Source: Allobosea sp.
GTDB taxonomy: Bacteria; Pseudomonadota; Alphaproteobacteria; Rhizobiales; Beijerinckiaceae
Length of the DNA stretch: 38,491 bases
Assembly: GCF_030694325.1 (NCBI RefSeq)
Contig: NZ_JAUXYO010000302.1
Location: 1-38,491 of the forward strand
Direction: 5' to 3'
The notes beneath the pieces were generated by a model. That model did no database searches. It saw only the letters and a list, made by a program, of their open reading frames with translations, and was not told where the DNA came from. Of the stretch, positions 10,774 to 37,518 are shown piece after piece. Every line of letters begins with the position of its first letter. Positions within the stretch are counted from its first letter, which is position 1. A program made the position numbers and the translations under genes.

Positions 10774-11046
10774 TCACGCCACGGCTTCGGCGAGATCCTT
10801 GGTGACCTTGAACTTCACCACCGTCTTGGCCGGGACCTTGATGGTGGCGCCGGTCGAGGGGTTGCGGGCCTCGCGGGCTTCGCGCTTGGCGGCCGACAGC
10901 TTGCCGACGCCGCCGAGCGTGATGTCGTCGCCAGCCTTCAGCGTCTTCGCGACGACGGTGCCCAGCGAGGCGAGGATGGCGGAGACGTCCGCCTTCGACT
11001 TGCCGGTCTCATCGGCGATGGCGGCGATCAGTTCGTTCTTGGTCAT
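10774..11046 (-). CDS. HU family DNA-binding protein
   Basis: This 90-residue protein has the complete HU/IHF fold: MTKNELIAAIADETGKSKAD at the N-terminus, the GVGKLSAAKREAREARNPSTG arm and the IKVPAKTVVKFKVTKDL end. It should bend DNA as a dimer and compact the nucleoid. ATG 11046 has a strong GGAGG five bases upstream; an upstream in-frame ATG would only read through that ribosome-binding site. The arm holds the conserved RNP-S/A-TG tip with the DNA-intercalating proline. It is divergent from the FAD monooxygenase across 282 bases. Confidence 0.95.
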   Translation of the reverse strand: MTKNELIAAIADETGKSKADVSAILASLGTVVAKTLKAGDDITLGGVGKLSAAKREAREARNPSTGATIKVPAKTVVKFKVTKDLAEAVA

Positions 11047-11270
11047 GAAATCCTCCATGGGGAGCGTTGTGGGGCATCACGCGACGCGAAGGGTCGGCAG
11101 ACCCGTCCGAAAACACGGCGCGAAAGCCGCAGGCCACACGATGCGGCTGGGGCAGTTGCCACGACCATCGGCGAAAGGCGATGCCCGCGCCGCTAGATAC
11201 GCACAGAAATCGCGTTCGTTCCGCGAATCGAAGCCGCATCTCAACCAAAGGGAGGCCCGATCGAGCGCAA

Positions 11271-11288: not shown

Positions 11289-11308
11289 TTATTTCAAGCT
11301 TGAAATAA
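11289..11308 (+). promoter_or_regulatory. Perfect 20-bp palindromic operator before the FAD monooxygenase
   Basis: TTATTTCAAGCTTGAAATAA is its own reverse complement over all 20 bases and is AT-rich in a GC-rich region. It ends 20 bases before the ATG at 11329. The same motif with three differences is at 18716-18735 in the promoter of the HAAT importer operon. Length and symmetry suit a dimeric repressor such as a MarR-type protein; the regulator itself is not encoded in the window. Confidence 0.75.
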
Positions 11309-11328
11309 TTGAGGGCTGGGGAAGCGGC

Positions 11329-12573
11329 ATGAAGGTCATCATCGTCGGAGGCGGCATCGGCGGCCTGACGCTCGCGCTGATGCTGCACGCGCGCGGCATC
11401 GGCGCGACCGTTTACGAACAGGCCAGCGAAATCCGCGAGGTCGGCGTCGGCATCAACACGCTGCCTCATGCCATCCGCGAACTGGCGGATCTCGGCCTGC
11501 TGCCGGCGCTCGACGCCGTTGCGATCCGCACCCGCGAACTGGTCTACATGAACCGCTTCGGCCAGACGGTCTGGCGCGAGCCGCGCGGCCTGCATGCGGG
11601 CGCGCCGACGCCTCAGTTCTCGATCCACCGCGGTCGCCTTCAGGCCGTGATCCGCGACGCCGTCGTGGCGCGGCTGGGCGAGGGCGCGGTCCGGACCGGC
11701 CGCCGGCTGCAGGGCTTCATCCAGGACGAGGGCGGCGTCACCGCTCATTTCGCCGATTCGCGCCGGGGCGAGACGGGCGAGACCGCGCGCGGCGATATCC
11801 TCGTCGCGGCCGATGGCATCCATTCGATGGTGCGCGCCCATTACTTCCCCGACCAGGGGGCGCCGCGTTGGAACGGCGTCCAGATGTGGCGCGGCGCCTG
11901 CGACTGGCCGGTCTTCCTCGATGGGGAAAGCATGATCGTCGCCGGCGGCATGGCCGGCAAGCTGGTGCTCTACCCGATCGCCAAGGGAAAGACGGCCCAA
12001 ACCCGGCTCACCAACTGGGTCGTCAACATCCGCACCGGCGATCCCGCCAGGCCGCCGCCGAAGGAGGCCTGGTCGAAGCCGGGCCGGCTCGAGGACGTGC
12101 TGCCCTTCGCGCGCCGCTTCACCGTGCCCGGCGTGGACATTCTCGGGCTGATCCAGGCCAGCCCCGGCTTCTGGGACTACCCGATGTGCGACCGGGACCC
12201 GTTGCCGCGCTGGACCCATGGCCGCGTCACGCTGCTCGGCGACGCCGCCCACCCGATGTATCCGGTCGGCTCGAACGGGGCGTCCCAGGCGATCCTCGAC
12301 GCGCGCTGCCTGGCCGATACGCTGGTCCGTTCCGAGCATCCGCGCCACGCGCTTGCAGCCTATGAGGCACAGCGCCTGCCGGCGACGGCGGAGATCGTGG
12401 CGCTGAACCGCAAGGGCGGGCCCGAGCGCGTCATCGACGCCGTCGAGCAGCTGGCGCCGAACGGCTTCGACGATGTCGAGCGCGTCCTGAGCTATGCCAA
12501 GCGCGAGGCGATCGTGAAGTCCTATGCCGGCAAGGCCGGGTTCTCGCAGGAGCAGCTTGCCCGGCGGGCGTGA
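11329..12573 (+). CDS. FAD-dependent monooxygenase, PhzS-like (group A aromatic hydroxylase)
   Basis: This 414-residue flavoprotein has all three marks of group A flavin hydroxylases: GGGIGG at residues 7-12 with Glu30 ending the second strand, ADGIHSMVRAH around residues 161-171, and GDAAHPMYPVGSNG around 304-317. Stretches such as TVWREPRG, QFSIHRGRLQ, MWRG and GRLEDVLPF strongly recall PhzS, the phenazine-carboxylate monooxygenase, from memory of that protein. It would therefore use NAD(P)H, FAD and O2 to hydroxylate an aromatic, perhaps with decarboxylation. There is no signal peptide, so it is cytoplasmic. The start has GGGGAAG nearby. The perfect palindrome directly upstream, shared with the HAAT importer promoter, suggests substrate-controlled expression. 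No phenazine genes are present, so phenazine itself is unlikely to be the substrate. Confidence 0.88.
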   Translation: MKVIIVGGGIGGLTLALMLHARGIGATVYEQASEIREVGVGINTLPHAIRELADLGLLPALDAVAIRTRELVYMNRFGQTVWREPRGLHAGAPTPQFSIHRGRLQAVIRDAVVARLGEGAVRTGRRLQGFIQDEGGVTAHFADSRRGETGETARGDILVAADGIHSMVRAHYFPDQGAPRWNGVQMWRGACDWPVFLDGESMIVAGGMAGKLVLYPIAKGKTAQTRLTNWVVNIRTGDPARPPPKEAWSKPGRLEDVLPFARRFTVPGVDILGLIQASPGFWDYPMCDRDPLPRWTHGRVTLLGDAAHPMYPVGSNGASQAILDARCLADTLVRSEHPRHALAAYEAQRLPATAEIVALNRKGGPERVIDAVEQLAPNGFDDVERVLSYAKREAIVKSYAGKAGFSQEQLARRA

Positions 12574-12578
12574 CCGGC

Positions 12579-12947
12579 TTAGCCGGCCTCGGTCAGCTGC
12601 TGGATGCGGCTCTTCATGCGGGCATTGTCCCGCTCGGCCATGCGCAGCCGCATCGCGACATCGGTTTCCGTAGGGTTTGCGGTCTCCGGAACCCTCTCGG
12701 CCTCGAAGGAGACGCCGATGCGCGTGCCCGTCCGCCAACGGACATGGGCACGGTAGCAGCACTGGCGCTGGGCGATCTCGAGCTCAAAATCGGAGGGCAG
12801 GAGCACCGTGTCCGGCACCACGATGAGGGCGCCCCCATCCGAGATGTTGCGAACGACGCAATCCAAGGTCGCACGCTTCTGGTTGTAGCGCGCTCGCGCG
12901 CCCAGAAGAGAGCGCAACCGTGGCGTCTGGCGCCGCTCCGTGGTCAT
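12579..12947 (-). CDS. PilZ domain protein (c-di-GMP binding candidate)
   Basis: This 122-residue protein is a single PilZ domain with a short helical tail. The c-di-GMP motif RxxxR is present at Arg6-Arg10, and the second motif reads NISDGG, which fits (D/N)xSxxG. Both key motifs are thus intact and binding is plausible. The central segment alternates beta strands (FELEIAQRQCCYRAHVRWR, RIGVSFEAE), as in the PilZ barrel. Residues 90-122 are predicted helix and might mediate partner contact. It is convergent with the monooxygenase gene, with five bases between the ends, and lies downstream of a second PilZ gene. No cyclase or phosphodiesterase is nearby. Confidence 0.88.
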   Translation of the reverse strand: MTTERRQTPRLRSLLGARARYNQKRATLDCVVRNISDGGALIVVPDTVLLPSDFELEIAQRQCCYRAHVRWRTGTRIGVSFEAERVPETANPTETDVAMRLRMAERDNARMKSRIQQLTEAG

Positions 12948-13034
12948 GGCTCGATCCCGGCAGTCTTCAGCAGGCGGCCCCCTGCCGCCTCGATGAGACC
13001 ATGCCAGAGGTGCGGGTGCCGCGCAGCAACCGAA

Positions 13035-13050
13035 ACGTTAAGTGTTTAAC
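13035..13050. promoter_or_regulatory. CGTTAA-N4-TTAACG inverted repeat upstream of the first PilZ gene
   Basis: Two perfect 6-base arms with a 4-base spacer lie 88 bases before the PilZ start at 12947, in the gap between the two PilZ genes. TTAA is rare in this DNA. The spacing does not fit a CtrA box; the binding protein, if any, is unknown. Confidence 0.35.
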
Positions 13051-13082
13051 GATCCGTCGCCCGGATGCGCGAAAGAACGGGC

Positions 13083-13409
13083 TCAGTCCGCATCCCGGAC
13101 GCCAGCCCGCCGGGCTCGCGCCTCGGCCAGCGAGACGACGGGGGAGGGGGTGGCCTCTTCGAGGGTCAGGAAGGCGACGCCGACATCGTCGCCGCGCCGC
13201 CAGCACTGCCGGACGCGACGCCGGTCTCCCGCTGGGATGTCGAGTTCGAAAGTGTCCGGCAGCTCGATCCAGTCCGCCATCCGGATCATCGCGCCGGTCT
13301 GCGAATGATTGCGCACGGTGCAGGCCAGCACGGACTGCTCGCCGTTGAACACGAGTCGAGCCGGCTGGTGCAGGCGGTCGCGCGTCTGGAGGCGGCGATC
13401 GGCGATCAT
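13083..13409 (-). CDS. Second PilZ domain protein
   Basis: This 108-residue PilZ domain starts at ATG 13409, where GGGAG lies seven bases upstream. A longer frame from 13472 lacks a ribosome-binding site and adds non-domain residues. RxxxR is present at Arg6-Arg10 and the second motif is NHSQTG, so both c-di-GMP contacts are kept. The barrel strands include FELDIPAGDRRRVRQCWRRGDDVGVAFL. The C-terminus is short and basic. It resembles the neighbouring PilZ protein in layout (MIADRR against MTTERR starts, equal motif spacing to the barrel), suggesting an old duplication, though the sequences differ widely. Its target is unknown. Confidence 0.88.
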   Translation of the reverse strand: MIADRRLQTRDRLHQPARLVFNGEQSVLACTVRNHSQTGAMIRMADWIELPDTFELDIPAGDRRRVRQCWRRGDDVGVAFLTLEEATPSPVVSLAEARARRAGVRDAD

Positions 13410-13491
13410 CGGCAGACTCCCGCAAAAGGCCTCCGAAAGGATCGAAGGCTCCTGCCATTGAAGTTGCCGCAAAAGGGCCGCCCGCGCAGCC

Positions 13492-13506
13492 TTTACCCGC
13501 GCTTAA
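13492..13506. promoter_or_regulatory. Possible CtrA-type box upstream of the second PilZ gene
   Basis: TTTA, seven bases, then TTAA (followed by CC) is one mismatch from TTAA-N7-TTAA. It lies about 85 bases before the PilZ start at 13409, at the end of the cupin gene. It is a weak motif match only. Confidence 0.25.
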
Positions 13507-13522
13507 CCTTACCCGGCAGGCG

Positions 13523-13981
13523 TCAGGCGCCGTCGGGGGGCGGCGGCAGGAAGTCGACCTCGTGCTTGGCCGAGAGCGCCACGACATCGGCCGGATTCTG
13601 CTCGGCCATCGAGTGGATGCCCCAGAACAGATCGTAGAGGCGCCCCGTCGGGGCCACCCAGAACAGGCACTTCACGGGGGCATCGCTCTTGTTGAAGAGA
13701 CCGTGGGGCACATTGCGCGGCAGGCGGATCAGGTCGCCGGGCAGGGCATGGCTCTCGGCCCCGTCGAGGACGAGGTCGAGCCGTCCCTCCAGCATGTAGA
13801 TGAACTCGTCCTGCGTGGTGTGGATGTGGGGCGGCACGAAGGTGCCGGGCGGGAAGGTGGCGTGCCAGGAAAAGGAGTCCTCGCTGAGCGACTTCGGCAC
13901 ATAGGTCTGGCCGAGGATGTTCCAGGAGATCGCATCGAGCCCCTCATTGGCCCGGGTGACGCCGGCGGTCAGTGGCTTCAT
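13523..13981 (-). CDS. Cupin domain protein, putative metal-dependent (quercetinase-like) enzyme
   Basis: This 152-residue monocupin has both cupin motifs. Motif 1 is PPHIHTTQDEFIYMLEG, giving His52, His54 and Glu59. Motif 2 is LPGDLIRLPRNVPHGLFN, giving His93. All four classic metal ligands are present, so an enzyme rather than a pure binding protein is plausible. The layout suits small cupins annotated as quercetin-dioxygenase-like, but the substrate cannot be read. It lies 18 bases after the stop of the LivF-type ATPase on the same strand, so it is very probably the last gene of the importer operon and acts on the imported compound. This link is inference from gene order. Confidence 0.85.
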   Translation of the reverse strand: MKPLTAGVTRANEGLDAISWNILGQTYVPKSLSEDSFSWHATFPPGTFVPPHIHTTQDEFIYMLEGRLDLVLDGAESHALPGDLIRLPRNVPHGLFNKSDAPVKCLFWVAPTGRLYDLFWGIHSMAEQNPADVVALSAKHEVDFLPPPPDGA

Positions 13982-13999
13982 GGCAGATATCCTCGCTCG

Positions 14000-14698
14000 T
14001 CAGAAATGCAGGAAGCGGTCCTTGACCGCGCTGTCGCTGCGCAGATCGTCGCTGCTGCCGCGCCAGACGACGCGCCCCTTCTCCAGGACGACATGGCGGT
14101 CGGCGATCTTGGCCAGCGCATCGACGTTCTTGTCGATCACCAGGATCGACTCGCCCTCGGCCTTCAGCGCCGAAAGGCAGGCCCAGATCTCCTGGCGGAT
14201 GATCGGCGCCAGCCCCTCCGTCGCCTCGTCGAGGATGATCAGGCGGGGATTGGTCATCAGCGCCCGGCCGATGGCGAGCATCTGCTGCTCGCCGCCTGAG
14301 AGCTGGTTGCCGCGGTTGGCACGGCGCTCCTTCAGGCGCGGGAAGAAGGCGTAGATCCGCTCGATGTCCCAGCGGGCCTTGCCGAAGCGGCTGGCGGCGG
14401 TCGCGATCAGGTTCTCCTCGACGGAGAGCGTCGGGAAGATCATGCGCCCCTCGGGCACCAGGCCGATGCCGGCCTGCGCGATCCGGAACGCGGGCGCACC
14501 CGTGAGATCGCGCCCACCGACGCTGACGCGGCCGGATTTCGGCGGGATCAGCCCCATGATCGCGCGAATGGTCGTGGTCTTGCCCATACCGTTGCGGCCG
14601 AGCAGTGTCACCACCTCGCCTTCGCCGATCGCAAGATCGACCCCGAACAGGATCTGAGCCTCGCCATAGCCGGCATCGAGCCCCTCGACGACGAGCAT
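14000..14698 (-). CDS. livF: HAAT-family ABC transporter ATP-binding protein, LivF type
   Basis: This 232-residue ABC ATPase has Walker A GRNGMGKT near residue 33, signature LSGGEQQMLAIGRAL and Walker B LIILDEATEGLAP, all typical of LivF. ATG 14698 is chosen because GGAGG ends within the upstream LivG-type gene just before it. The longer open frame to 14857 only reads the livG gene in another frame. Its start lies one base past the preceding stop, so translation is coupled. It works with the LivG-type ATPase on the cytoplasmic face of the permease pair. The liv name states the family; the substrate need not be an amino acid. Confidence 0.92.
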   Translation of the reverse strand: MLVVEGLDAGYGEAQILFGVDLAIGEGEVVTLLGRNGMGKTTTIRAIMGLIPPKSGRVSVGGRDLTGAPAFRIAQAGIGLVPEGRMIFPTLSVEENLIATAASRFGKARWDIERIYAFFPRLKERRANRGNQLSGGEQQMLAIGRALMTNPRLIILDEATEGLAPIIRQEIWACLSALKAEGESILVIDKNVDALAKIADRHVVLEKGRVVWRGSSDDLRSDSAVKDRFLHF

Positions 14699-14699
14699 C

Positions 14700-15449
14700 C
14701 TACCCCTCCTCGCCGAGATAGGCTTCGCGCACCGCCGGGTCGGCCCGCACCGTGGCGGGATCGCCCGAGGCGATAACGCGGCCATAGACCAGCACGCTGA
14801 CGCTGTCGGCGAGCGCGAACACCGCCTCCATGTCATGCTCGACCAGCAGCATGGCATAGCGGCCCTTCAGGCTGGCGAGCAGCGCGATCAGCCGCTCTCC
14901 CTCCTCGCGGCCGACGCCGGCGAGCGGCTCGTCCAGCAGGATCGCGGCCGGTTCCAGCGTCAGCGCCATCGCGATCTCGAGCGCGCGCTTCTCGCCATGC
15001 GACAGCCGCCCGGCCAGGACATGGGCGCGTTCGGTAAGGCCGACGGCCTCGAGCGCCGCCCAGGCCGGCGCATTCAGGGCCTCGTCCCGGGCTGCGTTCC
15101 GAAACAGCGCCAGCGGATGGGCCGCCCGGGCCTGCGCCCCGAGCGCAACATTTTCCAGCACCGAGAGAGACGGGATCGTCGAGGTGATCTGGAAGGTCCG
15201 GGCGAGGCCTGCTCGTGCCCGTCGTTCCGGCGAGAGACCGGTGATGTCCTGCCCTCGGAAGCGGATGCTCCCGGTATCGGGCCGCAGCATGCCGGAGATC
15301 TGGTGGACCAGTGTCGTCTTGCCCGCTCCATTCGGGCCGATCAGGGCGTGGAGTTGCCCAGGCGCGACCGACAGGCTGACGCCGTCGGTCACCTTGAGGG
15401 CGCCAAACGCCTTCTGGACGCCGGAAAGAACGAGCACGGGCTCAGTCAT
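14700..15449 (-). CDS. livG: HAAT-family ABC transporter ATP-binding protein, LivG type
   Basis: This 249-residue ATPase has Walker A GPNGAGKT near residue 38, signature LSHGEKRALEIAMAL and Walker B AILLDEPLAGVG, followed by the switch histidine in LLVEHDMEAV. In the signature, the second Gly of LSGG is His, which is usual in LivG proteins. It overlaps the end of the LivM-type permease gene by eight bases, so translation is coupled. It pairs with the LivF-type ATPase immediately downstream. Confidence 0.92.
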   Translation of the reverse strand: MTEPVLVLSGVQKAFGALKVTDGVSLSVAPGQLHALIGPNGAGKTTLVHQISGMLRPDTGSIRFRGQDITGLSPERRARAGLARTFQITSTIPSLSVLENVALGAQARAAHPLALFRNAARDEALNAPAWAALEAVGLTERAHVLAGRLSHGEKRALEIAMALTLEPAAILLDEPLAGVGREEGERLIALLASLKGRYAMLLVEHDMEAVFALADSVSVLVYGRVIASGDPATVRADPAVREAYLGEEG

Positions 15450-16443
15450 CGCGTCCGGCCCCGAGCTTGCGCATCAGCCCGACGATCCCGCCGCGGGTGA
15501 ACAGCACGAAGAGCACGATCATCGGCCCGAAGATGGCCTTCCAGTGCTCGGTCCAACCAGCGAGGACGTCCTCGGCGAAGAGGAAGGCGAGCGCCCCGAT
15601 GATGGCGCCGTGCAGCGAGCCGACGCCGCCGAGCACGACCATGAAGATGAGCTCGCCCGAGCGCGGCCAGGACATGAAGGCCGGGCTGACGAACTCCGTC
15701 TGGTTGGCGAGCAGGAATCCGGAAAGCCCCGCGATCAGCCCGCTGATCACATAGGCGACGAGCCGCACTTGCGAGACCTGGAACCCGGTGACGGAGACGC
15801 GCGTGGCGTTCTCGCGCGCAGCCCTCAGCACGCGACCGAAGCGCGAGGCGACGATCACGCGGACGAGGAGGTAGCACGCCAGAAGCACGCCGAGCACGAC
15901 ATAGAAGAAGCCGATGCGGTTGCCGAAGGCGTCGAAGCCCAGCAGCGTGCTGCGCTGATAGAGCGTCAGCCCGTCGTCGCCGCCATAGGCCGAAAGCGCC
16001 TGCGCCAGGAAATAGACCATCTGCCCGAAGGCGAGCGTGATCATGATGAAGGTGACGCCGCGCGTGCGCAGCGAGACATAGCCCGTGACCAGCCCGAAGA
16101 GACCGCACACCGCCAGCACCACGGGCAGGATCAGCAGCGTCTCCGCCAGCCCCTCCGTGATCATGATGCCGGTCGCATAGGCGCCGATTCCGACGAAGGC
16201 GGCATGGCCGAACGAGACCAGCCCGCCGACGCCGAGGATGAGATCGAGCGAGAGCGCCGCGATGGCGAAGATCATCGCCCGCGTCACCAGCGTCAGCCAG
16301 TGCGAGGGCAGGCCGAGAGAGACCGCGAGCGGCAGCAGCGCCAGCAGGCCGAAGAGCAGGACCGGAACCAGCAGCACGCGCCGCGCTGGCAGGGGTATCG
16401 CCCGTGCGGTTGGCGCGGGCACTGTCGTGGTCGCCTCGCTCAT
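15442..16443 (-). CDS. livM: HAAT-family ABC transporter permease, LivM type
   Basis: This 333-residue membrane protein has about nine or ten hydrophobic helices after a short Pro/Ala-rich cytoplasmic N-terminus. LDLILGVGGLVSFGHAAFVGIGAY is the conserved LivM start of the permease core, and the segment NATRVSVTGFQVSQVRLVAYVISG is the cytoplasmic coupling loop that meets the ATPases. It overlaps the LivH-type gene by four bases (ATGA). With LivH it forms the membrane channel of the importer. Confidence 0.92.
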   Translation of the reverse strand: MSEATTTVPAPTARAIPLPARRVLLVPVLLFGLLALLPLAVSLGLPSHWLTLVTRAMIFAIAALSLDLILGVGGLVSFGHAAFVGIGAYATGIMITEGLAETLLILPVVLAVCGLFGLVTGYVSLRTRGVTFIMITLAFGQMVYFLAQALSAYGGDDGLTLYQRSTLLGFDAFGNRIGFFYVVLGVLLACYLLVRVIVASRFGRVLRAARENATRVSVTGFQVSQVRLVAYVISGLIAGLSGFLLANQTEFVSPAFMSWPRSGELIFMVVLGGVGSLHGAIIGALAFLFAEDVLAGWTEHWKAIFGPMIVLFVLFTRGGIVGLMRKLGAGRDD

Positions 16444-17366
16444 GCCCTGCCCTTCGAGGGCAGCAATCCCTCGGGCCGGACGAACAGCACGATCGCCATG
16501 ACGAGATAGATCAGCATCGAGGACAGCGCGGCACCCGCTGCCCGGGCCGAAGGGGCGCTCATGAACAACCGCAGCAGGTCGTTCATGAAGGAGCGGCCGA
16601 GCGTGTCGACGAGGCCGACGATCAGTGCCCCGACGAAGGCGCCTCGGATCGAGCCGATGCCGCCGACGACGATCACGACGAAGGCGAGGATCAGGATGTT
16701 GTCACCCATGCCGGGCTCGACCGAGAGGATCGGCGCCGCCATCGCGCCGGCGAAGGCCGCCAGCATCGTGCCGAAGGCGAAGACGATCATGAACAGCTTG
16801 TTGATGTCGACGCCGAGCGCTGAAACCATGGGCGCATTCGAGGCGCCGGCCCGCAGCAGCATGCCCGTGCGCGTCTTCTCGACGACGAACCACAGCAGAG
16901 CACCGACGGCGAGGCCGGAACCGATTAGCGCGAAGCGGTAGGTCGGGTAGAGGATACCGTCGAGCAGCGCGACATTGCCCGACAGGAAGGCCGGGACCGG
17001 AACCGAGAGCGGCGCCGCGCCCCAGAGCATCTTCACACCCTGGTTCAGCAGCAGGATCAGACCGAAGGTCGCCAGCACCTGGTCGAGATGGTCTCGCGCG
17101 TAGAGATGTCGAAAGACCAGGAACTCGAGCGCCAGCCCGATCACCAGCGCGCAGGCGAGCGCCAGCACGAGCCCGAGCACGAAGCTGCCGGTGATGCCGA
17201 CGAAGGTCACGGCGAGATAGGCGCCGAGCATGTACTGCACGCCATGCGCCAGGTTGATGAAGTCCATCACGCCGAAGACGAGCGTCAGCCCGGCGGCGAC
17301 CAGGAACAGCAGGATGCCGAGCTGGAGGCCGTTCAGGATCTGGACGATGAGGAGGCCGGTGGTCAT
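16440..17366 (-). CDS. livH: HAAT-family ABC transporter permease, LivH type
   Basis: This 308-residue membrane protein has about eight hydrophobic helices. The N-terminus reads QILNGLQLGILLFLVAAGLTLVFGVMDFINLAHG, the conserved LivH opening. The coupling region near residue 180 (RAGASNAPMVSALGVDINKLFM) also fits. It follows the binding-protein gene after 95 bases that hold a palindromic element. The start at 17366 has only a weak ribosome-binding site, but the downstream reading is normal for the family. Confidence 0.92.
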   Translation of the reverse strand: MTTGLLIVQILNGLQLGILLFLVAAGLTLVFGVMDFINLAHGVQYMLGAYLAVTFVGITGSFVLGLVLALACALVIGLALEFLVFRHLYARDHLDQVLATFGLILLLNQGVKMLWGAAPLSVPVPAFLSGNVALLDGILYPTYRFALIGSGLAVGALLWFVVEKTRTGMLLRAGASNAPMVSALGVDINKLFMIVFAFGTMLAAFAGAMAAPILSVEPGMGDNILILAFVVIVVGGIGSIRGAFVGALIVGLVDTLGRSFMNDLLRLFMSAPSARAAGAALSSMLIYLVMAIVLFVRPEGLLPSKGRA

Positions 17367-17377
17367 GTCGTGTCGCC

Positions 17378-17454
17378 CGTCATGCTCGGGCTTGACCCGA
17401 GCATCTCAGGAAAGAGATTCTCGGGTCTGCGCTGCGCTTCGCCCGAGAATGACG
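17378..17454. repeat. Palindromic intergenic element inside the HAAT importer operon
   Basis: The element begins CGTCATGCTCGGG and ends CCCGAGAATGACG. It contains a short strong hairpin GCTCGGGCTTGACCCGAGC near its left end and an internal GCTGCGCTTCGCC. It lies between the binding-protein stop and the LivH-type start. A stable hairpin here would be expected to favour the binding protein over the permeases in the transcript; this is inference. It resembles the dispersed elements at 18788, 28892 and 30465. Confidence 0.75.
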
Positions 17455-17461
17455 AAGAGGC

Positions 17462-18631
17462 TTACTTCAGCGCACAGTCCTTCGCATGCGGGTCGGCGTA
17501 GTCCGTGAACACCTTCGAGACGATCTCGGTCTGGAACTTGCCGTCGGCGCGCTTGGCGGCCTTGACCAGGTAGAAGTCCTGGATCGGGTAGCCGTTGGTG
17601 TTGAACTTGAACTTGCCGCGCAGCGAGGTGAAGTCGGCCTTCTTGAGCGCCGCGCGCAGCTTGTCCTTGTCGGCCGTTCCGCCGGCCGCCTTGACCGCCG
17701 AGTCGATCAGCATCGCGGCGTCATAGGCCTGCTGGGCGTAGGAGCCCGGCACGATCTTGTAGGCGGCCTCATAGGCGCTGACGAAGGCCTTGGTCTGCGG
17801 GTTGTCCATGTTCGGCGCCCAGGTCATGCCGCCGAACAGGCCCACCGCCGCATCCTGCTGCGCCGGCAGCGTCGACTCGTCGACCGTGAAGGCCGAGAGG
17901 AACGGGATCTTGCCCTGCAGGCCGGCCTGCGACCACTGCTTGACGAAGTTGACGCCCAGGCCCCCCGGCAGGAAGGCGAAGACCACATCCGGCTTGGTCG
18001 AGGCGATCTTGGCGAGGTCGGAGGCGAAGTCCATCGAGGTCAGCGGCGCATAGACCTCGTCGACGATCTCGCCCTTGAAATAGCGCTTGAAGCCGGCGAG
18101 CGAGTCCTTACCCGCCTGATAGTTCGGCGCGATGATGTAGGCGCGCTTGTAGCCCTGGTCCTGCGCATGCTTGCCGAGCACCTCGTGGACCTGGTCGTTC
18201 TGGTAGGAGGTCACGAAGAAGTTCTGGTGGCAGCCCTTGCCGGCCATGGTCGAGGGGCCGGCATTGGGCGAGATCAGGAAGGCGCCGGAGTCCAGCACCG
18301 GCTTGGCGATCGCGCCGAGGATGTTCGAGAACACCGGGCCGACGACGAAGTCCGCCTTGGCGCTCTCGACATAGGCCCTGACCTTGCCGACGGCGACGTC
18401 GGGCTTGAGTTCGTCGTCGATCACCGTGATCTGCACCGGCACGCCGCCGAGCTTGCCGCCGTTCTGGTCGACCGCGAGTTGGAAGCCGTCGCGGACCTGC
18501 TGGCCGAGCGCGGCCGCCGGACCTGTCAGCACGCTGACGACGCCGATCTTGAGCGGCTCCTGCGCCTGGGCGGAGGCGATGCCGAGGGCGAGGACGCCGG
18601 CACCGAGCGAAAGCGAGAATTTGAGCGTCAT
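17462..18631 (-). CDS. HAAT-family ABC transporter substrate-binding protein
   Basis: This 389-residue periplasmic protein starts at ATG 18631, with GGGAGGA eight bases upstream. It has a signal peptide of about 23 residues ending AQA. The mature part opens EPLKIGVVSVLTGPAAALGQQVRDG, the standard type I periplasmic-binding fold of the LivJ/LivK family, and contains GKGCHQNFFVTSYQNDQ in the hinge region. Many members bind aromatic acids rather than branched-chain amino acids. The palindrome in its promoter, shared with the PhzS-like monooxygenase, favours an aromatic ligand; this is inference. The longer open frame to 18799 runs through the promoter and is rejected. Confidence 0.92.
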   Translation of the reverse strand: MTLKFSLSLGAGVLALGIASAQAQEPLKIGVVSVLTGPAAALGQQVRDGFQLAVDQNGGKLGGVPVQITVIDDELKPDVAVGKVRAYVESAKADFVVGPVFSNILGAIAKPVLDSGAFLISPNAGPSTMAGKGCHQNFFVTSYQNDQVHEVLGKHAQDQGYKRAYIIAPNYQAGKDSLAGFKRYFKGEIVDEVYAPLTSMDFASDLAKIASTKPDVVFAFLPGGLGVNFVKQWSQAGLQGKIPFLSAFTVDESTLPAQQDAAVGLFGGMTWAPNMDNPQTKAFVSAYEAAYKIVPGSYAQQAYDAAMLIDSAVKAAGGTADKDKLRAALKKADFTSLRGKFKFNTNGYPIQDFYLVKAAKRADGKFQTEIVSKVFTDYADPHAKDCALK

Positions 18632-18712
18632 GTCGAATGTCCTCCCGGGACGAGCGAGAAAGCGACAGCGCGACAGGGGTCCCCTCGACCTCCTTGATCG
18701 CACGATGGGGGC

Positions 18713-18741
18713 ATATTGTTTCAAGCTTAAAATATCTGCAA
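18713..18741 (-). promoter_or_regulatory. Candidate promoter of the HAAT importer operon
   Basis: Read on the minus strand, TTGCAG (18736-18741) and CAATAT (18713-18718) are spaced by exactly 17 bases. Both are only partial matches to -35 and -10 consensus. The operator-like palindrome fills the spacer, the usual place for a repressor site. The -10 lies about 82 bases before the binding-protein start. Confidence 0.4.
18716..18735. promoter_or_regulatory. Operator-like palindrome before the HAAT importer, matching the monooxygenase operator
   Basis: TTGTTTCAAGCTTAAAATAT matches the perfect palindrome at 11289-11308 at 17 of 20 positions, with the central TTTCAAGCTT identical. It is an imperfect palindrome itself. 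It lies 85-104 bases before the binding-protein ATG. I found no third copy in the window. Confidence 0.7.
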
Positions 18742-18917: not shown

Positions 18918-20000
18918 TCAGGCCTGCACGCCGTCGACATACCAGTCCATCTTGGACAGGATCGCGTCCGATGCGGTCTCGCCGGCCTTCAGCCGCACCT
19001 CGCCCTTCTGGTCCTTCAGCTCGCCCGTGAAGGGGTGGAGCGTGCCGGCGACGATGCCCTTCGTGACCTCGTCTGCGGCGGCGCGCGCAGCCGGTGTCAC
19101 GGCGTCGTTATAGGGTGCGATCTTGACCATGCCGTCCTTGATGCCACCCCAGACGTCACCGCTCTTCCAGGTGCCGTCCATCACCTCCTTGACGCGCTTG
19201 ATGTAGTAGCCGGACCAGTCGTCGACGATCGCGGTCAAATGCGCCTTGGGGGCGAAAGCCTTCATGTCGGAGGCCTGGCCGAAGGCGAAGACGCCGCGTT
19301 GCTCGGCCGCCTGGAGAGCCGCCGCCGAGTCGGTGTGCTGGGTGATGATATCGCAGCCCTGGTCGATCAACGCCTTGGCGGCGTCGGCTTCCTTGGCCGG
19401 ATCGTACCAGGTCGAGGCCCAGATCACCTTGGTCCTGAAGTTCGGGTTCACCTTGCGGGCGGCGATCGTGAAGGCGTTGATGCCCATCACCACCTCGGGA
19501 ATTGGGAAGGAGGCGATATAGCCGGCCTGGCCGGACTTCGACATGTGCCCGGCAATGGTGCCGATGACCGCGCGGCCTTCATAAAAGCGGGCATTGTAGG
19601 TCGCGACGTTCTCGGCGCGCTGATAGCCGGTGGCGTGCTCGAATTTCAGCTTCGGGAACTGCTTGGCGACCTGGATCGTCGGGTTCATGAAGCCGAACGA
19701 GGTCGTGAAGATGAGCTGGTTGCCGGCCTGGGCGAGCTGGCGGATCGCGCGCGCCGCATCGGGGCCCTCCGCCACCTTCTCGATGAAGCTCGTCTTGATC
19801 TTCGCGCCGTACTCCTTCTCGATCGCCAGACGACCCTGATCATGGGTCCAGGTCCAGCCATGGTCGCCGATCGGGCCGACATAGATGAAGCCGACGCCCA
19901 ACGGCGCCTGGGCACGGGCGCCCGTTCCGATCAGCGGGAGAGCCGCGGCGCTGGCGCCGGCTCCGAAATTGAACCGGCGGCGGGTGATGATCGAGGTCAT
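18918..20000 (-). CDS. BMP-family ABC transporter substrate-binding protein (purine/nucleoside type)
   Basis: This 360-residue protein belongs to the basic membrane protein (BMP/PnrA) family of purine nucleoside-binding proteins. It opens GVGFIYVGPIGDHGWTWTHDQG after the signal and contains FTTSFGFMNP, a family-typical strand and loop. The N-terminus TRRRFN at residues 6-11, then a hydrophobic stretch and ARA before Gln31, looks like a twin-arginine (Tat) signal. ATG 20000 is chosen because upstream frame residues are arginine-rich and GGAG lies ahead. It is the last gene of the purine block, 28 bases after the permease stop, and probably captures a purine base or nucleoside. Confidence 0.9.
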   Translation of the reverse strand: MTSIITRRRFNFGAGASAAALPLIGTGARAQAPLGVGFIYVGPIGDHGWTWTHDQGRLAIEKEYGAKIKTSFIEKVAEGPDAARAIRQLAQAGNQLIFTTSFGFMNPTIQVAKQFPKLKFEHATGYQRAENVATYNARFYEGRAVIGTIAGHMSKSGQAGYIASFPIPEVVMGINAFTIAARKVNPNFRTKVIWASTWYDPAKEADAAKALIDQGCDIITQHTDSAAALQAAEQRGVFAFGQASDMKAFAPKAHLTAIVDDWSGYYIKRVKEVMDGTWKSGDVWGGIKDGMVKIAPYNDAVTPAARAAADEVTKGIVAGTLHPFTGELKDQKGEVRLKAGETASDAILSKMDWYVDGVQA

Positions 20001-20028
20001 GAGGGGAGTCTCCGGTTGCGGGGCGGCG

Positions 20029-20952
20029 TCAGGACGCCGAGAACGGCTTGCCGAGGCAGGCCGGCGCATTGAGCCGGCCCGTCTTGCGGCCTAGCGACAT
20101 CATGGTCAGAACCGCGATTGTCGCAAGATAGGGCGTCATCGCGAGGAGTTCCGGTGCGAGCCAGGTGATGCCGGCCGCCTTGGCCTGGAGCTCGAGCGTC
20201 ATGACCGAGCCGAAGAGATAGGCGCCGAGCAGCAGCCGGCCCGGGCGCCAAGCGGCGAAGACGACGAGCGCGAGCGCGATCCAGCCACGTCCCGCGGTCA
20301 GCCCCTCGGCCCACATCGGCGTGAGCGCCAGCGAGAAATAGGCCCCGCCCAGCCCCGCCAATGCCCCGCCGAAGGCGATCGCCGCATAGCGTATGGCGAT
20401 GACGGGGTAGCCGATGGCATGGGCCGAAGCGTCGTTCTCGCCGACCGCGCGCAGGATCAGGCCCGGCCGCGTGCGTCTCAGGAACAGGCTGACGCCGAGC
20501 ACCAGCGCGAGCGAGAGATAGACGACGATGTCGTGGCCGAAGATCGCGCGCAGCAGGGGATGCTCCGAGAGTGCGGCCGGCAACACCGGGTCGAGCCGCG
20601 TGATCGTGCGGCCGACGAAGCCCGCGCCGATCAGCGAGGAGGCGCCGATGCCGAAGATCGTCAAAGCAAGCCCGGTGGCGACTTGGTTGGCGGTCAGCGA
20701 CAGCGTCAAGACAGCAAACACCATCGCCGTCGCCACGCCCGCCACCATCGCGGCCAGAAGGCCGAGCATCGTGCTGCCGGTGCTGAACGCGACCGCGAAG
20801 CCCGCGACGGCCCCGCACAGCATCATGCCCTCGACGCCGAGATTGAGCACGCCGGCCTTCTCCGTGACGAGTTCCCCCAGCGCCGCCAGCAGGATCGGCG
20901 TCGAGGCGGCAATGAGGGTCATCAGGATCGAGACGAGGATGGCGGTGGTCAT
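20029..20952 (-). CDS. BMP-type ABC transporter permease (second, NupQ-like)
   Basis: This 307-residue membrane protein has about eight to nine hydrophobic helices. The N-terminal half contains LGELVTEKAGVLNLGVEGMM, the conserved motif of the short permease that accompanies BMP-binding proteins and nucleoside importers. It pairs with the longer permease upstream on the same strand, from which it is separated by 169 bases holding a palindromic element. The ribosome-binding site is not strong but the family-typical N-terminus supports the start. Confidence 0.9.
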   Translation of the reverse strand: MTTAILVSILMTLIAASTPILLAALGELVTEKAGVLNLGVEGMMLCGAVAGFAVAFSTGSTMLGLLAAMVAGVATAMVFAVLTLSLTANQVATGLALTIFGIGASSLIGAGFVGRTITRLDPVLPAALSEHPLLRAIFGHDIVVYLSLALVLGVSLFLRRTRPGLILRAVGENDASAHAIGYPVIAIRYAAIAFGGALAGLGGAYFSLALTPMWAEGLTAGRGWIALALVVFAAWRPGRLLLGAYLFGSVMTLELQAKAAGITWLAPELLAMTPYLATIAVLTMMSLGRKTGRLNAPACLGKPFSAS

Positions 20953-20963
20953 AACGCAACCCC

Positions 20964-21102
20964 TGTCATTCCGGGGCGCGCCAGTGGCGCGAACCCGGAA
21001 CCCACGACCGGGTGAGCGTTTCGTCCTTCGTCCCGCCCAGCCGTGTGGTCTCGCCCGGTCGTGGGTTCCGGGTTCTTCGCTGCGCGAAGCCCCGGAATGA
21101 CA
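20964..21102. repeat. Palindromic intergenic element between the two BMP permease genes
   Basis: The outer arms TGTCATTCCGGGG and CCCCGGAATGACA are perfect reverse complements. An inner pair of 22 bases (starting GAACCCGGAACCC at 20991 and ending at 21075) is also perfectly complementary. The whole 139 bases could fold as a long two-part stem. It is unrelated in detail to the CATCCCGGAC family but has the same architecture. Confidence 0.85.
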
Positions 21103-21121
21103 AGCGTGCGTGCCCGCCCCC

Positions 21122-22186
21122 TCATGCCGCCCGCGCCTTCCAGCCGATGCGGTATTTCACCAGCACGTCGGTCGCCAGCAGCACGAAGAGCAGCAGCGCC
21201 TGGAACATGCCGGTCGCGGCCTGAGGCAGCCGCACGGTCGTCTGCGCGATCTCGCCGCCGACATAGGTCGCTGCCAGCACGACACCGCCAAAGACGATGC
21301 CGAGCGGGTTCAGTCGGCCGAGGAAGGCCACGATGATCGCGGTGAAGCCATAGCCGGTCGGGAATTGGGGCGTGAGCTGCCCGAAGGGGCCGGCCGCCTC
21401 GAAGAGCCCGGCCAGGCCGGCGAGCCCGCCGCTGGCGAGCAGCGTCGCCCAGGTCACCCGGTCGGCGCTGAAGCCGCCGTGGCGCGCGGCGGCGGGCGCC
21501 AGCCCCACGACCCTGACTGCGTAGCCGGCGGTCGTCTTCTCCATCAGCAGCCAGGCGACGAGCGCGATCACGAGCGCTGCGGGGATGCCGAGATGGACGA
21601 GCGAGCCCTCCATCATCGCCGGCAAGGTCTGGTCGGCCCCGAACATCCGCGTCTGCGGAAAGTTGAAGCCGTCAGGGTCCTTCCAGGGCCCGCGCACCAG
21701 GTAATAGAGGCCCTGAACCGCGACATAGGTCAGCATCAGGCTCGTCAGGATCTCGCTGACCTGCAGCCGCACACGCAGGAAGGCCGGCACGGCCGCCCAG
21801 GCCATGCCGCCGAGCACCCCTGCAAATGCCATCGCGGGCAGGATCCACCAGCCGGTCATCTCATGCGTCACCAGGGCCACGCCGGTGCCGGCGATGGCGC
21901 CCATGATGTATTGGCCCTCGGCGCCGATGTTCCAGACATTGGCGCGGAAGCCGATGGCGAGCCCGAGCGCGATCATCACCAGCGGCGCCGCCTTGACGCC
22001 GAGATCGGGCCAGCGCTGTGGCTCGATGAAGGGCGTCACGAAGATGCTCTCGACCGCATGAAAGCCGTCATAGCCCATCGCCGTGAAGACGATCATGCCC
22101 AGCAGCATCGTCAGCCCGATCGCGATCAGCGGGCTGAGCCAGAGCATCAGCATGCTCGGCTCGCGGCGGCGGCGCCATTCAAGCAT
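21122..22186 (-). CDS. BMP-type ABC transporter permease (first, NupP-like)
   Basis: This 354-residue membrane protein has about nine to ten hydrophobic helices after a short basic N-terminus MLEWRRRREPS. It contains GFRANVWNIGAEGQYIMGAI, the conserved motif of this permease family (the paired permease has NLGVEGMM). ATG 22186 is chosen because the longer frame to 22405 translates a palindromic repeat element. GAGG lies nine bases before the start. It forms the channel with the second permease. Confidence 0.9.
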   Translation of the reverse strand: MLEWRRRREPSMLMLWLSPLIAIGLTMLLGMIVFTAMGYDGFHAVESIFVTPFIEPQRWPDLGVKAAPLVMIALGLAIGFRANVWNIGAEGQYIMGAIAGTGVALVTHEMTGWWILPAMAFAGVLGGMAWAAVPAFLRVRLQVSEILTSLMLTYVAVQGLYYLVRGPWKDPDGFNFPQTRMFGADQTLPAMMEGSLVHLGIPAALVIALVAWLLMEKTTAGYAVRVVGLAPAAARHGGFSADRVTWATLLASGGLAGLAGLFEAAGPFGQLTPQFPTGYGFTAIIVAFLGRLNPLGIVFGGVVLAATYVGGEIAQTTVRLPQAATGMFQALLLFVLLATDVLVKYRIGWKARAA

Positions 22187-22220
22187 GGGCGTTGCCTCTG
22201 TCGCTGGCCGGCGAGGGCGC

Positions 22221-22370
22221 CTCCCTTCCCCCTTGTGGGGAAGGGTAGGGGGATGGGGGTGGTCCCGCTTGGCGAGCGGGAGCCGGTATGGGCGCCGCGC
22301 CGCGTAGCCGGGGCCGCGCGCTTTGACTTTGCGACCGCCACCCCTGCCCCTCCCCACAAGGGGGAGGGGT
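22221..22370. repeat. Palindromic CCCCTTGTGGGG element between the BMP ATPase and permease genes
   Basis: The left arm holds CCTTCCCCCTTGTGGGGAAG and the right arm CCTCCCCACAAGGGGGAGG, an imperfect inverted repeat. Its middle has GCTTGGCGAGCGGGA. A second element of this pyrimidine/purine-rich type lies at 24812-24975. Reading frames across it explain several spurious long N-termini. Confidence 0.75.
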
Positions 22371-22401
22371 TTCCGTCGAGGCGAGCGGCAAGGTGAAAGC
22401 C

Positions 22402-23949
22402 TCAAGCATGGGCGACCTCGCTCTCGCCATGCACCCCGCCCATCATCAGGCCGATCTCGTCGATGCCGAGGCTGGCGACAGCGCGCGGGGCCGACAGCCG
22501 CCCCTCATTGATGACACAGAGCCGGTCGGCCAGCTCGAGCAGTTCGTCGAGATCCTGCGAGATCACCACCACGGCCGAGCCCTTTTCGGCGAGATCGACG
22601 AGTTCCTGCCGGATTGCCGCCGCGGCCCCGGCATCCACGCCCCAGGTCGGCTGGCAGACGACGAGCACGCCCGGTGTCTGGCCGATCTCCCGGCCCATGA
22701 TGAACTTCTGGAGATTGCCGCCCGACAGCGAGCGGGCGAGCGCTGCCGTCCCGGTGGTGCGGACGTCGAAGCGCTTGATCACGGAATCGGCGAAGCGCTT
22801 GACGTCTCCCGTGCTGATCATCCCGAGCGGGGTCAGCGGCAGGCGGTGGCGCGCGGTCAGCACCGCATTATCGGCGAGCGAGAAATCGGGCACCGCGGCA
22901 TGGCCGTTGCGCTCTTCCGGCACGCAGCAGAGCCCGAGCGCCCGGCGCGCGCCCGCATCCAGCCGCCCCACCGGTTTCCCGTCTAGTGTGACCGCATCGG
23001 CCGTGTTCGCCGGCCGCTCGCCGGACAGGGCGGTCAGCAGTTCCGACTGGCCGTTGCCCGCGACGCCGGCGATGCCGAGGATTTCGCCGGCCCGCGCCTC
23101 GAAGGCCACCGCACGCAGATCGGTGCCGAAGGGCGGCTCGCCGGGAAGCGTCAGCGCGGAGACCGACAGCCGCACGGGCCCGGCGCCGGCGCTTCCGCCA
23201 TGCTCGATCTGGCGCAGTTCGGCGCCGATCATCAGCTCGGCCATGCGCTTCGTGCTCTCGACGCGCGGGTCGCAGGTGGCGACGACCCGGCCAGCCCGCA
23301 GGATCGTGGCGGCCTCGCACAGAGCCTTGATCTCATGCAGCTTGTGCGAAATGTAGAGGATCGCGCAGCCCTGCGACGCGATCTGGCGCAGCGTGCCGAA
23401 GAGCTTGTCCACCTCCTGCGGCGTCAGCACCGAGGTCGGCTCGTCCATGATCAGCAGCCGGGGATTCTGCAGCAGGCAGCGCACGATCTCGATGCGCTGC
23501 CGCTCGCCGACCGACAGCGTATGGACCTCGCGCTCGGGGTCGAGCGGCAGCGAGTAGCTTTCCAGGATCGCCGCGACGCGGCCCTTGAGTTCGTTCGTGT
23601 CGCAGGCCTCGTCGAGACCGAGCGCGATGTTCTCGATCACCGTCATCGCGTCGAAGAGCGAGAAGTGCTGGAAGACCATGCCGATGCCCAGCCGCCGCGC
23701 GGCCTTGGGCGAGGGGATCGAGACCGGCGCACCGTCCCAGGCGATGGTCCCGGCATCGGCCTGCTGCACGCCATAGATGATCTTGACCAGGGTCGACTTG
23801 CCCGCCCCGTTCTCGCCCAGCAAAGCGTGGATCTCGCCCGGCGCAACGCCGAGGCTGATGTCCTCGTTCGCCTTCACGCCGGGAAAGCTCTTGGAGATGC
23901 CCGACAGGGCGAGCCGGGGGCGAACCGTCTGGTCAGGCGGTTGCGTCAT
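22402..23949 (-). CDS. BMP-type ABC transporter ATP-binding protein with two ATPase domains (NupO-like)
   Basis: This 515-residue protein has two ABC domains. Domain 1 has Walker A GENGAGKS at residues 45-52, signature LSVGERQRIEIVR and Walker B LLIMDEPTSVLTP. Domain 2 has the family's altered P-loop GVAGNGQSE, signature LSGGNLQKFIMGRE and a degenerate Walker B VLVVCQPTWGVD, as usual for the sugar/purine-type twin ATPase. It powers the two downstream permeases. Its first 17 bases overlap the end of xdhC, so translation of the importer is tied to the xanthine dehydrogenase maturation gene. The purine substrate is inferred from this context. Confidence 0.92.
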   Translation of the reverse strand: MTQPPDQTVRPRLALSGISKSFPGVKANEDISLGVAPGEIHALLGENGAGKSTLVKIIYGVQQADAGTIAWDGAPVSIPSPKAARRLGIGMVFQHFSLFDAMTVIENIALGLDEACDTNELKGRVAAILESYSLPLDPEREVHTLSVGERQRIEIVRCLLQNPRLLIMDEPTSVLTPQEVDKLFGTLRQIASQGCAILYISHKLHEIKALCEAATILRAGRVVATCDPRVESTKRMAELMIGAELRQIEHGGSAGAGPVRLSVSALTLPGEPPFGTDLRAVAFEARAGEILGIAGVAGNGQSELLTALSGERPANTADAVTLDGKPVGRLDAGARRALGLCCVPEERNGHAAVPDFSLADNAVLTARHRLPLTPLGMISTGDVKRFADSVIKRFDVRTTGTAALARSLSGGNLQKFIMGREIGQTPGVLVVCQPTWGVDAGAAAAIRQELVDLAEKGSAVVVISQDLDELLELADRLCVINEGRLSAPRAVASLGIDEIGLMMGGVHGESEVAHA

Positions 23950-24787
23950 GGCCGGCTCGTTCCTCCGCTCCGGCTCCGCGGGAAGCCTCTGGTTTCCGAA
24001 GCAAACTCCGCACCAGTTCGGCGGCCGTCAAGGCCGCGATCACCTCGGGGCGCTTGTCGTCCACATCGCCGCCGCCGATCGGGCAGGTGAGGCGCGACAG
24101 CGCCTCGCGTCGCCCCCCACTGCGCAGGAAGCCGGCCTCGAAGCGCGCTCGCTTGGTCGCCGAGCCGATCATGCCGACATAGGCCGCATCGCCCCGCTGC
24201 AGCACGGCCTCGGCCAAGCGGTAGTCGAGCGCGTGGCTATGCGTGAGAACGACATGGGCGGCGCCGGCCGGCGCCGTGGCGATGACCGCGACGGGATCGG
24301 CCACGCGGATGCAGGTCACCGCGGCCGGCAGCCCGTCCATGACGCCATCGCGATCGTCGATCAGCGTCACCCGGAAAGGTAAGGGGGCCAGCGCTTGAAC
24401 GAGGGCGCGCCCGGTATGCCCGGCTCCGAACACCAGCACGGTCGGGCGCGTCTCGGCCTCGGCCCGCTCTCGCGCGACCTGCATCGCGATGTCGGCCGAT
24501 ATGGCCCGCCGCAGTGAGACCTGCACCCGTCCGCCGCAGCACTGGCCCATCTGCGGGCCGAGCGGGATGTCGAGGCTTCGTTCGCGCTCGCCGCTGGCGA
24601 GCATCGCCCGGGCAATGTCGAGGCAATGGAATTCGAGCTGCCCGCCGCCGATTGTCCCGGCCGCGCCGGTTGCGCTCACCGCCATCGCCGTGCCGGCCTC
24701 GCGCGGAGTCGAGCCCGCGGCGTCGGTGAGGGTAACGAGGATGGCGCCGTCTGAGCGGTGGCGGGCGAGAAAGGCGGCGGGGGTCAT
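23933..24787 (-). CDS. xdhC: Xanthine dehydrogenase accessory protein XdhC
   Basis: This 284-residue protein has the XdhC/CoxI N-terminal domain and a C-terminal Rossmann-like domain beginning VLVFGAGHTGRALVQAL at about residue 117 (G121, G123, G126). The QCCGG motif has cysteines at 83 and 84, and AGTIGGGQLEFH is family-typical. XdhC binds and sulfurates the molybdenum cofactor and hands it to XdhB. It follows xdhB after 226 bases that hold a palindromic element and overlaps the transporter ATPase gene by 17 bases. Confidence 0.93.
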   Translation of the reverse strand: MTPAAFLARHRSDGAILVTLTDAAGSTPREAGTAMAVSATGAAGTIGGGQLEFHCLDIARAMLASGERERSLDIPLGPQMGQCCGGRVQVSLRRAISADIAMQVARERAEAETRPTVLVFGAGHTGRALVQALAPLPFRVTLIDDRDGVMDGLPAAVTCIRVADPVAVIATAPAGAAHVVLTHSHALDYRLAEAVLQRGDAAYVGMIGSATKRARFEAGFLRSGGRREALSRLTCPIGGGDVDDKRPEVIAALTAAELVRSLLRKPEASRGAGAEERAGHDATA

Positions 24788-24811
24788 GACCTGCCACCTT
24801 CATCCAGAAGG

Positions 24812-24975: not shown

Positions 24976-25013
24976 GTGGGTTCGCGTAGCGTGGGGATGC
25001 AATGGAGCACCGG

Positions 25014-28836: not shown

Positions 28837-28891
28837 GACGCTGCACCGGCTGCTTGTGCCAAGAGTGCGACGCATGATCCCACATCTCCGC

Positions 28892-37301: not shown

Positions 37302-37345
37302 CGCGGACTCCCGAGTTGCTGAGACTTTGGCGGGGGGTTCCATAG

Positions 37346-37461: not shown

Positions 37462-37518
37462 CTGAAGTCCCCCCGGCGGACTCTCTGATGTCTCGATAGA
37501 GCCTCACGGCCTGTCAGA

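Follow-up and report, generated by a model that had tools for sequence, protein, structure and literature searches.

Two similar palindromes in one stretch of DNA, one upstream of a PhzS-like flavin adenine dinucleotide (FAD) monooxygenase gene and one upstream of a HAAT-type ATP-binding cassette (ABC) importer operon ending in a cupin gene, raise the question of whether both units answer to one regulator, and to which. The stretch analysed (38,491 nucleotides of contig NZ_JAUXYO010000302.1 from an Allobosea sp. genome, counted here among Bosea) is referred to below as the window. The original prediction read the two sites as the operator of an undescribed aromatic-acid regulon. From sequence comparison we infer, with a probability of roughly 80%, that both are operators of one MarR-family repressor, whose likeliest gene lies on another contig of the same genome (C132), and that they are under joint control with the abm-type (2-aminobenzoate-coenzyme A (CoA)) operon of that contig. 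The two putative operators are as follows:

11289..11308, no strand assigned: site 1, perfect 20-bp palindrome TTATTTCAAGCTTGAAATAA, upstream of the FAD monooxygenase gene and conserved there in Bosea
18716..18735, no strand assigned: site 2, TTGTTTCAAGCTTAAAATAT, identical to site 1 at 17 of 20 positions, upstream of the importer operon (minus-strand binding-protein gene)

Position and symmetry of site 1, which ends 20 bp before the monooxygenase ATG (11329), were confirmed, as was its recurrence at site 2. With up to three mismatches, the two sites were the sole matches to the 20-mer in the 4.63-Mb genome, so that copies at unrelated loci, for which the original prediction had advised a search, did not appear; a reversed-pattern control gave none, and 0.0017 matches per 4.63 Mb are expected by chance under a first-order Markov model of the window's composition. 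No third operator match was found in the window, and the motif strings searched in papers gave no matches. The promoter-like frame that had been proposed around site 2 did not hold up: TTGCAG-17-CAATAT can be read there, each hexamer with only 3 of 6 consensus bases, and a consensus promoter scan reported no promoter at site 1 or site 2.

A candidate regulator and a probable anthranilate operon on contig C132

Among 35 open frames of the window scanned with Pfam (a subset of all frames), no MarR, GntR or other helix-turn-helix repressor was detected, the sole regulator-type matches being an HU protein (10774-11058) and a lone Lrp/AsnC ligand-binding domain (37065-37541); a regulator encoded within the window was therefore ruled out among these frames. 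The path to a regulator led through relatives, where the palindromes precede a fusion gene of ~770 amino acids (aa), at one locus (L048) with a divergent MarR gene. The window genome has one such gene, a fused monooxygenase/old-yellow-enzyme-type reductase (C132:15635-17956, 774 aa), whose protein matches NCBIfam PRK08255 (bifunctional salicylyl-CoA 5-hydroxylase/oxidoreductase) over both halves and above cut-off (1130.7 vs 1078 bits). Divergent from it lies an operon (L081 10167-15927) for a short-chain dehydrogenase/reductase (SDR), a MarR regulator, an enoyl-CoA hydratase, an acyl-CoA dehydrogenase, a benzoate-type CoA ligase and a RidA-type protein; the SDR, hydratase, dehydrogenase and L-PSP/RidA assignments are from Pfam, that of the ligase from the benzoate-CoA ligase family model, which it passes. 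Because this layout matches the one reported for the anthranilate CoA pathway of Azoarcus evansii, we call the fusion gene ACMR (2-aminobenzoyl-CoA monooxygenase/reductase), and judged by sequence the ligase and ACMR most likely belong to the anthranilate (2-aminobenzoyl-CoA) pathway.

The MarR gene of this operon, a type of gene that the original prediction had suggested looking for, is accompanied by the same kind of site: TTATTTTAGGTCTGAAATAA lies 31 bp upstream of ACMR, four mismatches from the window palindrome. Its winged-helix domain (PF12802, C132:19111-19281) scores above cut-off, and solved MarR relatives exist. The genome has 34 MarR_2 matches, 23 of them above the family cut-off; among the 30 loci compared, the C132 protein is 46% identical to the MarR divergent from the sited ACMR of L048 (genome G113), the next-nearest reaching 32%, and no other locus has a site closer than eight mismatches within the 2-3 kb examined. 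Within the MarR family drawn from 70 loci plus the own gene (71 sequences, some loci overlapping), the stretch MVSNGNVT is at least 90% conserved. A degenerate consensus, TTATTTYARRYYTRAAATAA, occurs with up to three mismatches at exactly three places in the genome, upstream of the monooxygenase, the periplasmic binding protein (SBP) and ACMR, with none in the control; as it was composed after the sites were known, the informative part is the emptiness of the genome elsewhere.

The operator and its genes in relatives

Conservation of the sites in close relatives was seen in scans of both the family and Bosea. The 20-mer was matched in 24 of 119 family genomes, and 10 of the 17 site-bearing loci L034-L050 carry it at the fusion gene, an SBP gene or a tryptophan dioxygenase gene. 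Upstream regions were then scored at the best 30 loci per gene (genomes with matches: SBP 65, ACMR 51, monooxygenase 45) using a consensus drawn from such sites. ACMR had a site at all 30 loci (none of 100 shuffles did better for 27 of them, 2-4 did for the other three) and SBP at 23, whereas the monooxygenase had one at eight, namely in four Bosea genomes (the window's included) and four of genus g15; a further monooxygenase locus, in G074, was beaten by no shuffle but matched at just 12 of 20 positions and was left out of the count. Outside these two genera the monooxygenase often lies behind ACMR or RidA on the same strand. A consensus scan listing 61 Bosea genomes yielded 27 new best-site loci. 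The monooxygenase accounts for 13 of them and the ACMR/SDR/MarR divergon for 12; of the remaining two, one adjoins a 3-hydroxyanthranilate 3,4-dioxygenase (3-HAO) gene and the other is without a reference gene.

Some other Bosea carry extra operator copies; the window genome has the three sites only. The extra copies lie upstream of tryptophan 2,3-dioxygenase-family genes (PF03301; L304-L307) and before an SBP paralogue adjoining 3-HAO (L308 and L309; genes matching the PF06052 / TIGR03037 models). The dioxygenase of L304 falls below the NCBIfam cut-off for bacterial tryptophan dioxygenase and the sited one in G091 (L045) above it. The dioxygenase-family genes of L304-L307 have an enzyme gene behind them, which in L304 gives a weak class-V pyridoxal phosphate match and is probably kynureninase-like. 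The theme common to operator-bearing genes is the path from tryptophan via kynurenine to anthranilate. Kynurenine-pathway genes as part of the monooxygenase clusters were rejected after a search with Bosea tryptophan dioxygenase, kynureninase-like and 3-HAO queries (121 loci plus the window; E 1e-30), an insensitive search that missed the L045 tryptophan dioxygenase and gave a single match, kynureninase-like, in L045, which was in the set because of its operator site. The tryptophan dioxygenase gene of L304 (6528-9486) comes after genes for an ABC importer whose binding protein belongs to Peripla_BP_2, a family with heme- and siderophore-binding members; tryptophan dioxygenase itself depends on heme.

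Gene neighbourhood links the window genes to abm genes across Alphaproteobacteria. Named monooxygenase loci were the best 80 of 593, from Bosea, Bradyrhizobium, Methylobacterium, Aurantimonas, rhodobacterial genera and others, 16 of them no longer than 19 kb. Within ~10 kb of the monooxygenase (at least 40% identity required, cupin excepted) these held the cupin in 71 cases, SBP in 67, the abm MarR in 55, the ligase in 54 and ACMR in 48. In many relatives the cluster is contiguous, as in Rhabdaerophilum (L200) and Methylobacterium crusticola (L201), hence Bosea carries a split version. Co-occurrence points the same way: among the 119 family genomes the cupin was present in 34 of 39 with the monooxygenase vs 2 of 80 without, and ACMR in 35 of 39 vs 16 of 80 (monooxygenase at ≥50% identity, 39 of 45 genomes; SBP at ≥60%, 44 of 65; one copy per genome, the C179 copy being used for G073, which has three), although Fisher tests on these counts ignore shared ancestry. 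ACMR was also found in 18 of 21 named genomes, which comprised 19 of the 32 loci without a nearby ACMR and two with one (L206, L262); for 16 of those 19 it lies elsewhere in the genome, several Bradyrhizobium copies being only ~53% identical. A Rhodobiaceae metagenome-assembled genome (MAG; L274) has the cupin and monooxygenase beside TRAP transporter genes (DctM family) in place of the HAAT importer, with the alpha/beta hydrolase described below nearby.

The operator at ACMR, SBP and tryptophan dioxygenase genes and beside 3-HAO, together with this neighbourhood, suggests that the apparent undescribed regulon is most likely a detached arm of an anthranilate regulon. What stands of the original prediction is one regulon for an aromatic acid, probably MarR-controlled, with importer and monooxygenase as members; it is not a new regulon standing by itself, its core being a pathway of a known kind, anthranilate degradation via 2-aminobenzoyl-CoA, on C132, with a MarR gene and a site of its own.

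Several results weigh against joint control by the abm repressor. Seven of the 17 loci L034-L050 from the first family scan have the site at other genes (L035, L038, L039, L040, L042, L043 and L044), a count that covers these 17 and leaves aside six further matching loci (L012-L014, L018, L021, L022). No clear site was found at seven of the 30 SBP loci, and 22 of the 30 monooxygenase loci are without one of their own, an absence to be expected only where transcription starts at a neighbouring promoter. Consensus matches occur in 60 of 61 Bosea genomes, yet the reversed-pattern control hits 30 of 61 (0-3 each), hence chance hits are included and the weight falls on gene context; in G141, with three matches, the examined locus (L280) is at no reference gene. 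ACMR is lacking at the cut-off used from four of the 39 family genomes with the monooxygenase, and was not found in Jannaschia marina and two MAGs (L261, L274) among the 21 named genomes. The degenerate consensus was written with knowledge of the sites, the core is AAGCTT at both window sites vs AGGTCT at the own ACMR site, and NCBIfam names the ACMR protein a salicylyl-CoA 5-hydroxylase/oxidoreductase.

The difference in core would allow a second, related regulator. Binding of the window sites by a different MarR-type protein with a similar motif would also accord with the number of MarR_2 matches in the genome and with similar palindromes that occur, in genus g43 among others, where no abm genes were recognised. 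We consider this improbable, as only the C132 protein, among the own MarR loci compared, both resembles the ACMR-linked MarR so closely and has a site within four mismatches. Moreover, SBP and ACMR sites alike have the AAGCTT core in G070, G075 and G084, of which G084 belongs to the window's genus, and this bridges the difference seen in the own genome. It appears less probable again that the regulated pathway is salicylate degradation via salicylyl-CoA: the PRK08255 match is above cut-off, but the operon content (CoA ligase, acyl-CoA dehydrogenase, enoyl-CoA hydratase, SDR, RidA-type protein and MarR) fits the anthranilate cluster reported for A. evansii, and in other Bosea the same operator precedes tryptophan dioxygenase genes and lies beside 3-HAO. 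For chance similarity of two AT-rich palindromes we found no supporting point; the expectation of 0.0017 matches and the conservation at the same genes in relatives reduce its likelihood to practically nil.

In genus g43, similar palindromes lie near importer genes (L035 5915 and 13963; L039 1225; L040 5550), in L035 together with genes for a flavin reductase and a monooxygenase of luciferase type. Another MarR regulon with a similar operator may lie behind these.

Gene products of the window and a possible chemistry

Family scans bore out the predicted gene order, with the FAD monooxygenase on the plus strand and SBP-livH-livM-livG-livF-cupin on the minus strand:

11329..12573, plus strand: PhzS-like FAD monooxygenase (NF005720/PRK07538 subfamily), 414 aa, from family scans and alignment
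13523..13981, minus strand: single-domain cupin (Cupin_2), 152 aa, ligands H52, H54, E59 and H93, its model nearest flavonol (quercetin) 2,4-dioxygenases
14000..14698, minus strand: LivF-type ATPase of the HAAT importer, from family scans, start codon chosen by eye
14700..15449, minus strand: LivG-type ATPase, from family scans
15442..16443, minus strand: LivM-type permease, from family scans
16440..17366, minus strand: LivH-type permease, from family scans
17462..18631, minus strand: HAAT periplasmic binding protein (SBP, Peripla_BP_6), nearest solved relative 4evq/4evr

A Liv-type operon with a Peripla_BP_6 binding protein identifies the importer as HAAT; the SBP scores 200 bits against 4evq, a benzoate-binding protein. 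Two PilZ-domain genes (12579-12947 and 13083-13409, minus strand) lie between monooxygenase and cupin. Beside the importer (18918-28875, minus strand) are genes for a BMP-type (nucleoside/purine-like) ABC transporter, XdhC and xanthine-dehydrogenase-type proteins, and the BMP transporter adjoins the HAAT operon also in three named Bosea loci (L196, L197, L199).

The monooxygenase has a group-A FAD fold with GxGxxG and GDAAH motifs and is 91% identical to its B. lathyri counterpart; its best solved relative is PhzS, PDB 3c96/2rgj (315 bits over residues 3-366). In another genome the monooxygenase match is split over two frames, apparently a broken copy (G059:C27:38172-39328). The cupin does have all four metal ligands that had been predicted, H52, H54, E59 and H93 being invariant in 32 aligned sequences, the window's included. 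Its fold and three-His one-Glu metal site are those of a quercetinase, the shared fold alone being no proof of membership, and flavonol (quercetin) 2,4-dioxygenases are on top among the 50 structural matches listed for its predicted model, at 17-21% sequence identity. Family scans gave no PF06052 / TIGR03037 match, and the cupin was rejected as a 3-hydroxyanthranilate dioxygenase for want of the PF06052 match; 3-HAO was absent among the 50 structural matches listed, which excludes nothing. The 80 monooxygenase loci also contributed 11 sequences of a second cupin ~50% identical to the window's (L214, L216, L227, L264 and others), which in L214, L216 and L227 adjoins the alpha/beta hydrolase and the first cupin.

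An alpha/beta hydrolase gene at the contig end (37519-38478, minus strand) encodes a protein 52% identical to a hydrolase inside the abm cluster of Bradyrhizobium sp. NFR13 (L243) and could supply a deacylation step, though no third operator match accompanies it in the window. As a fixed partner it was rejected: just 25 of the 80 monooxygenase loci contain it, and it also adjoins ACMR in L050, a locus of G117, where the monooxygenase was not found at the cut-off used; the link between hydrolase and cupin is hence suggestive only.

By analogy with other MarR repressors, the C132 protein would occupy its sites until released by a compound of the anthranilate pathway, either anthranilate itself or the CoA ester, whereupon the catabolic operon, HAAT importer, cupin and PhzS-like monooxygenase would be switched on together. 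The monooxygenase might then hydroxylate a quinolone- or indole-type acid after its import, the quercetinase-like cupin might open the N-ring to yield N-acyl- or N-formyl-anthranilate, and a kynurenine-formamidase-like hydrolase might free anthranilate for the CoA pathway. We infer this feed-in chemistry only tentatively, as the preferred one of several. Rather doubtful is the broader proposal that these three enzymes form an undescribed route, widespread in Alphaproteobacteria, in which an N-heteroaromatic acid (4-quinolone/indole carboxylate type) is imported and its N-ring opened by a metal cupin to give anthranilate, under one MarR switch also governing tryptophan/kynurenine breakdown.

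The same regulon could serve another chemistry, in which monooxygenase and cupin act on anthranilate itself or on a dead-end product rather than producing anthranilate, for example by decarboxylative hydroxylation of anthranilate to 2-aminophenol followed by ring opening, or by clearing 5-hydroxyanthranilate from an ACMR side product. Both genes sit inside abm clusters and co-occur, and PhzS and salicylate hydroxylases include decarboxylative enzymes. According to PMC3534580, ACMR can form 5-hydroxyanthraniloyl-CoA when NADH is limiting, which would provide such a side product. We nevertheless think this alternative unlikely, since the cupin is outside the 3-hydroxyanthranilate dioxygenase family, a second anthranilate route under the same switch would be uneconomical, and 2-aminomuconate genes were not recognised by eye in 11 loci, no search aimed at them having been made.

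Comparison with known systems

Both the abm pathway and the control of aromatic catabolism by MarR proteins are of known kinds. In the titles and abstract openings of the open full-text literature, most subscription papers lying outside the search, neither an abm-type MarR operator nor the monooxygenase-cupin pair was described, and the main text of PMC6449761 mentions neither MarR nor abm. Two features did not appear in the open literature searched and to that extent seem new: an operator common to units that are split apart, and the regular association of the PhzS-like/quercetinase-like pair with the abm pathway. What was an unexplained pair of sites can now be tested as a regulon for which a candidate regulator is named, and an orphan monooxygenase-cupin pair of many Alphaproteobacteria, Bradyrhizobium included, is now tied to anthranilate catabolism. 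If the tentative feed-in chemistry is true, it would bear on soil and root bacteria consuming tryptophan-derived, indole or quinolone signal compounds.

The closest likeness is to the abm clusters of Azoarcus/Aromatoleum evansii, which Schuehle et al. are said to have described in 2001 and which reportedly hold a CoA ligase, a fused monooxygenase/reductase, beta-oxidation enzymes, a MarR regulator, a RidA-type protein and an ABC binding protein. By this gene list, C132 shares the ligase, the fused gene, the beta-oxidation enzymes, MarR and the RidA-type protein, and the binding protein is shared too; in Bosea, however, the importer is on a separate contig with the PhzS-like monooxygenase and the cupin, joined by the shared operator. 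To our knowledge, a PhzS-like monooxygenase and cupin are not part of the A. evansii cluster. PhzS itself acts in the phenazine pathway and is the best solved relative of the window monooxygenase, whose context here is anthranilate catabolism, not phenazine synthesis, and the flavonol 2,4-dioxygenases differ from the window cupin in sequence at their 17-21% identity.

Two further systems reach anthranilate by other means. In the iad indole-3-acetate (IAA) loci of Variovorax and Bradyrhizobium, MarR control and anthranilate as the end point are shared, but the route runs through isatin, the regulators bind IAA and the word cupin is absent from the main text (PMC9613470). The quinaldine pathway of Arthrobacter sp. 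Rue61a resembles the preferred feed-in chemistry in that, according to PMC3534580, anthranilate is reached through a 3-monooxygenase and a 2,4-dioxygenase, with proposed entry into a CoA ligase/ACMR pathway, and an alpha/beta-hydrolase amidase is named in the reference list. Unlike the window cupin, the ring-cleaving enzyme of Rue61a is cofactor-independent, going by a title in the same list; if the feed-in chemistry is true, the window pair would do with a metal cupin what Arthrobacter achieves in quinolone ring cleavage without a cofactor.

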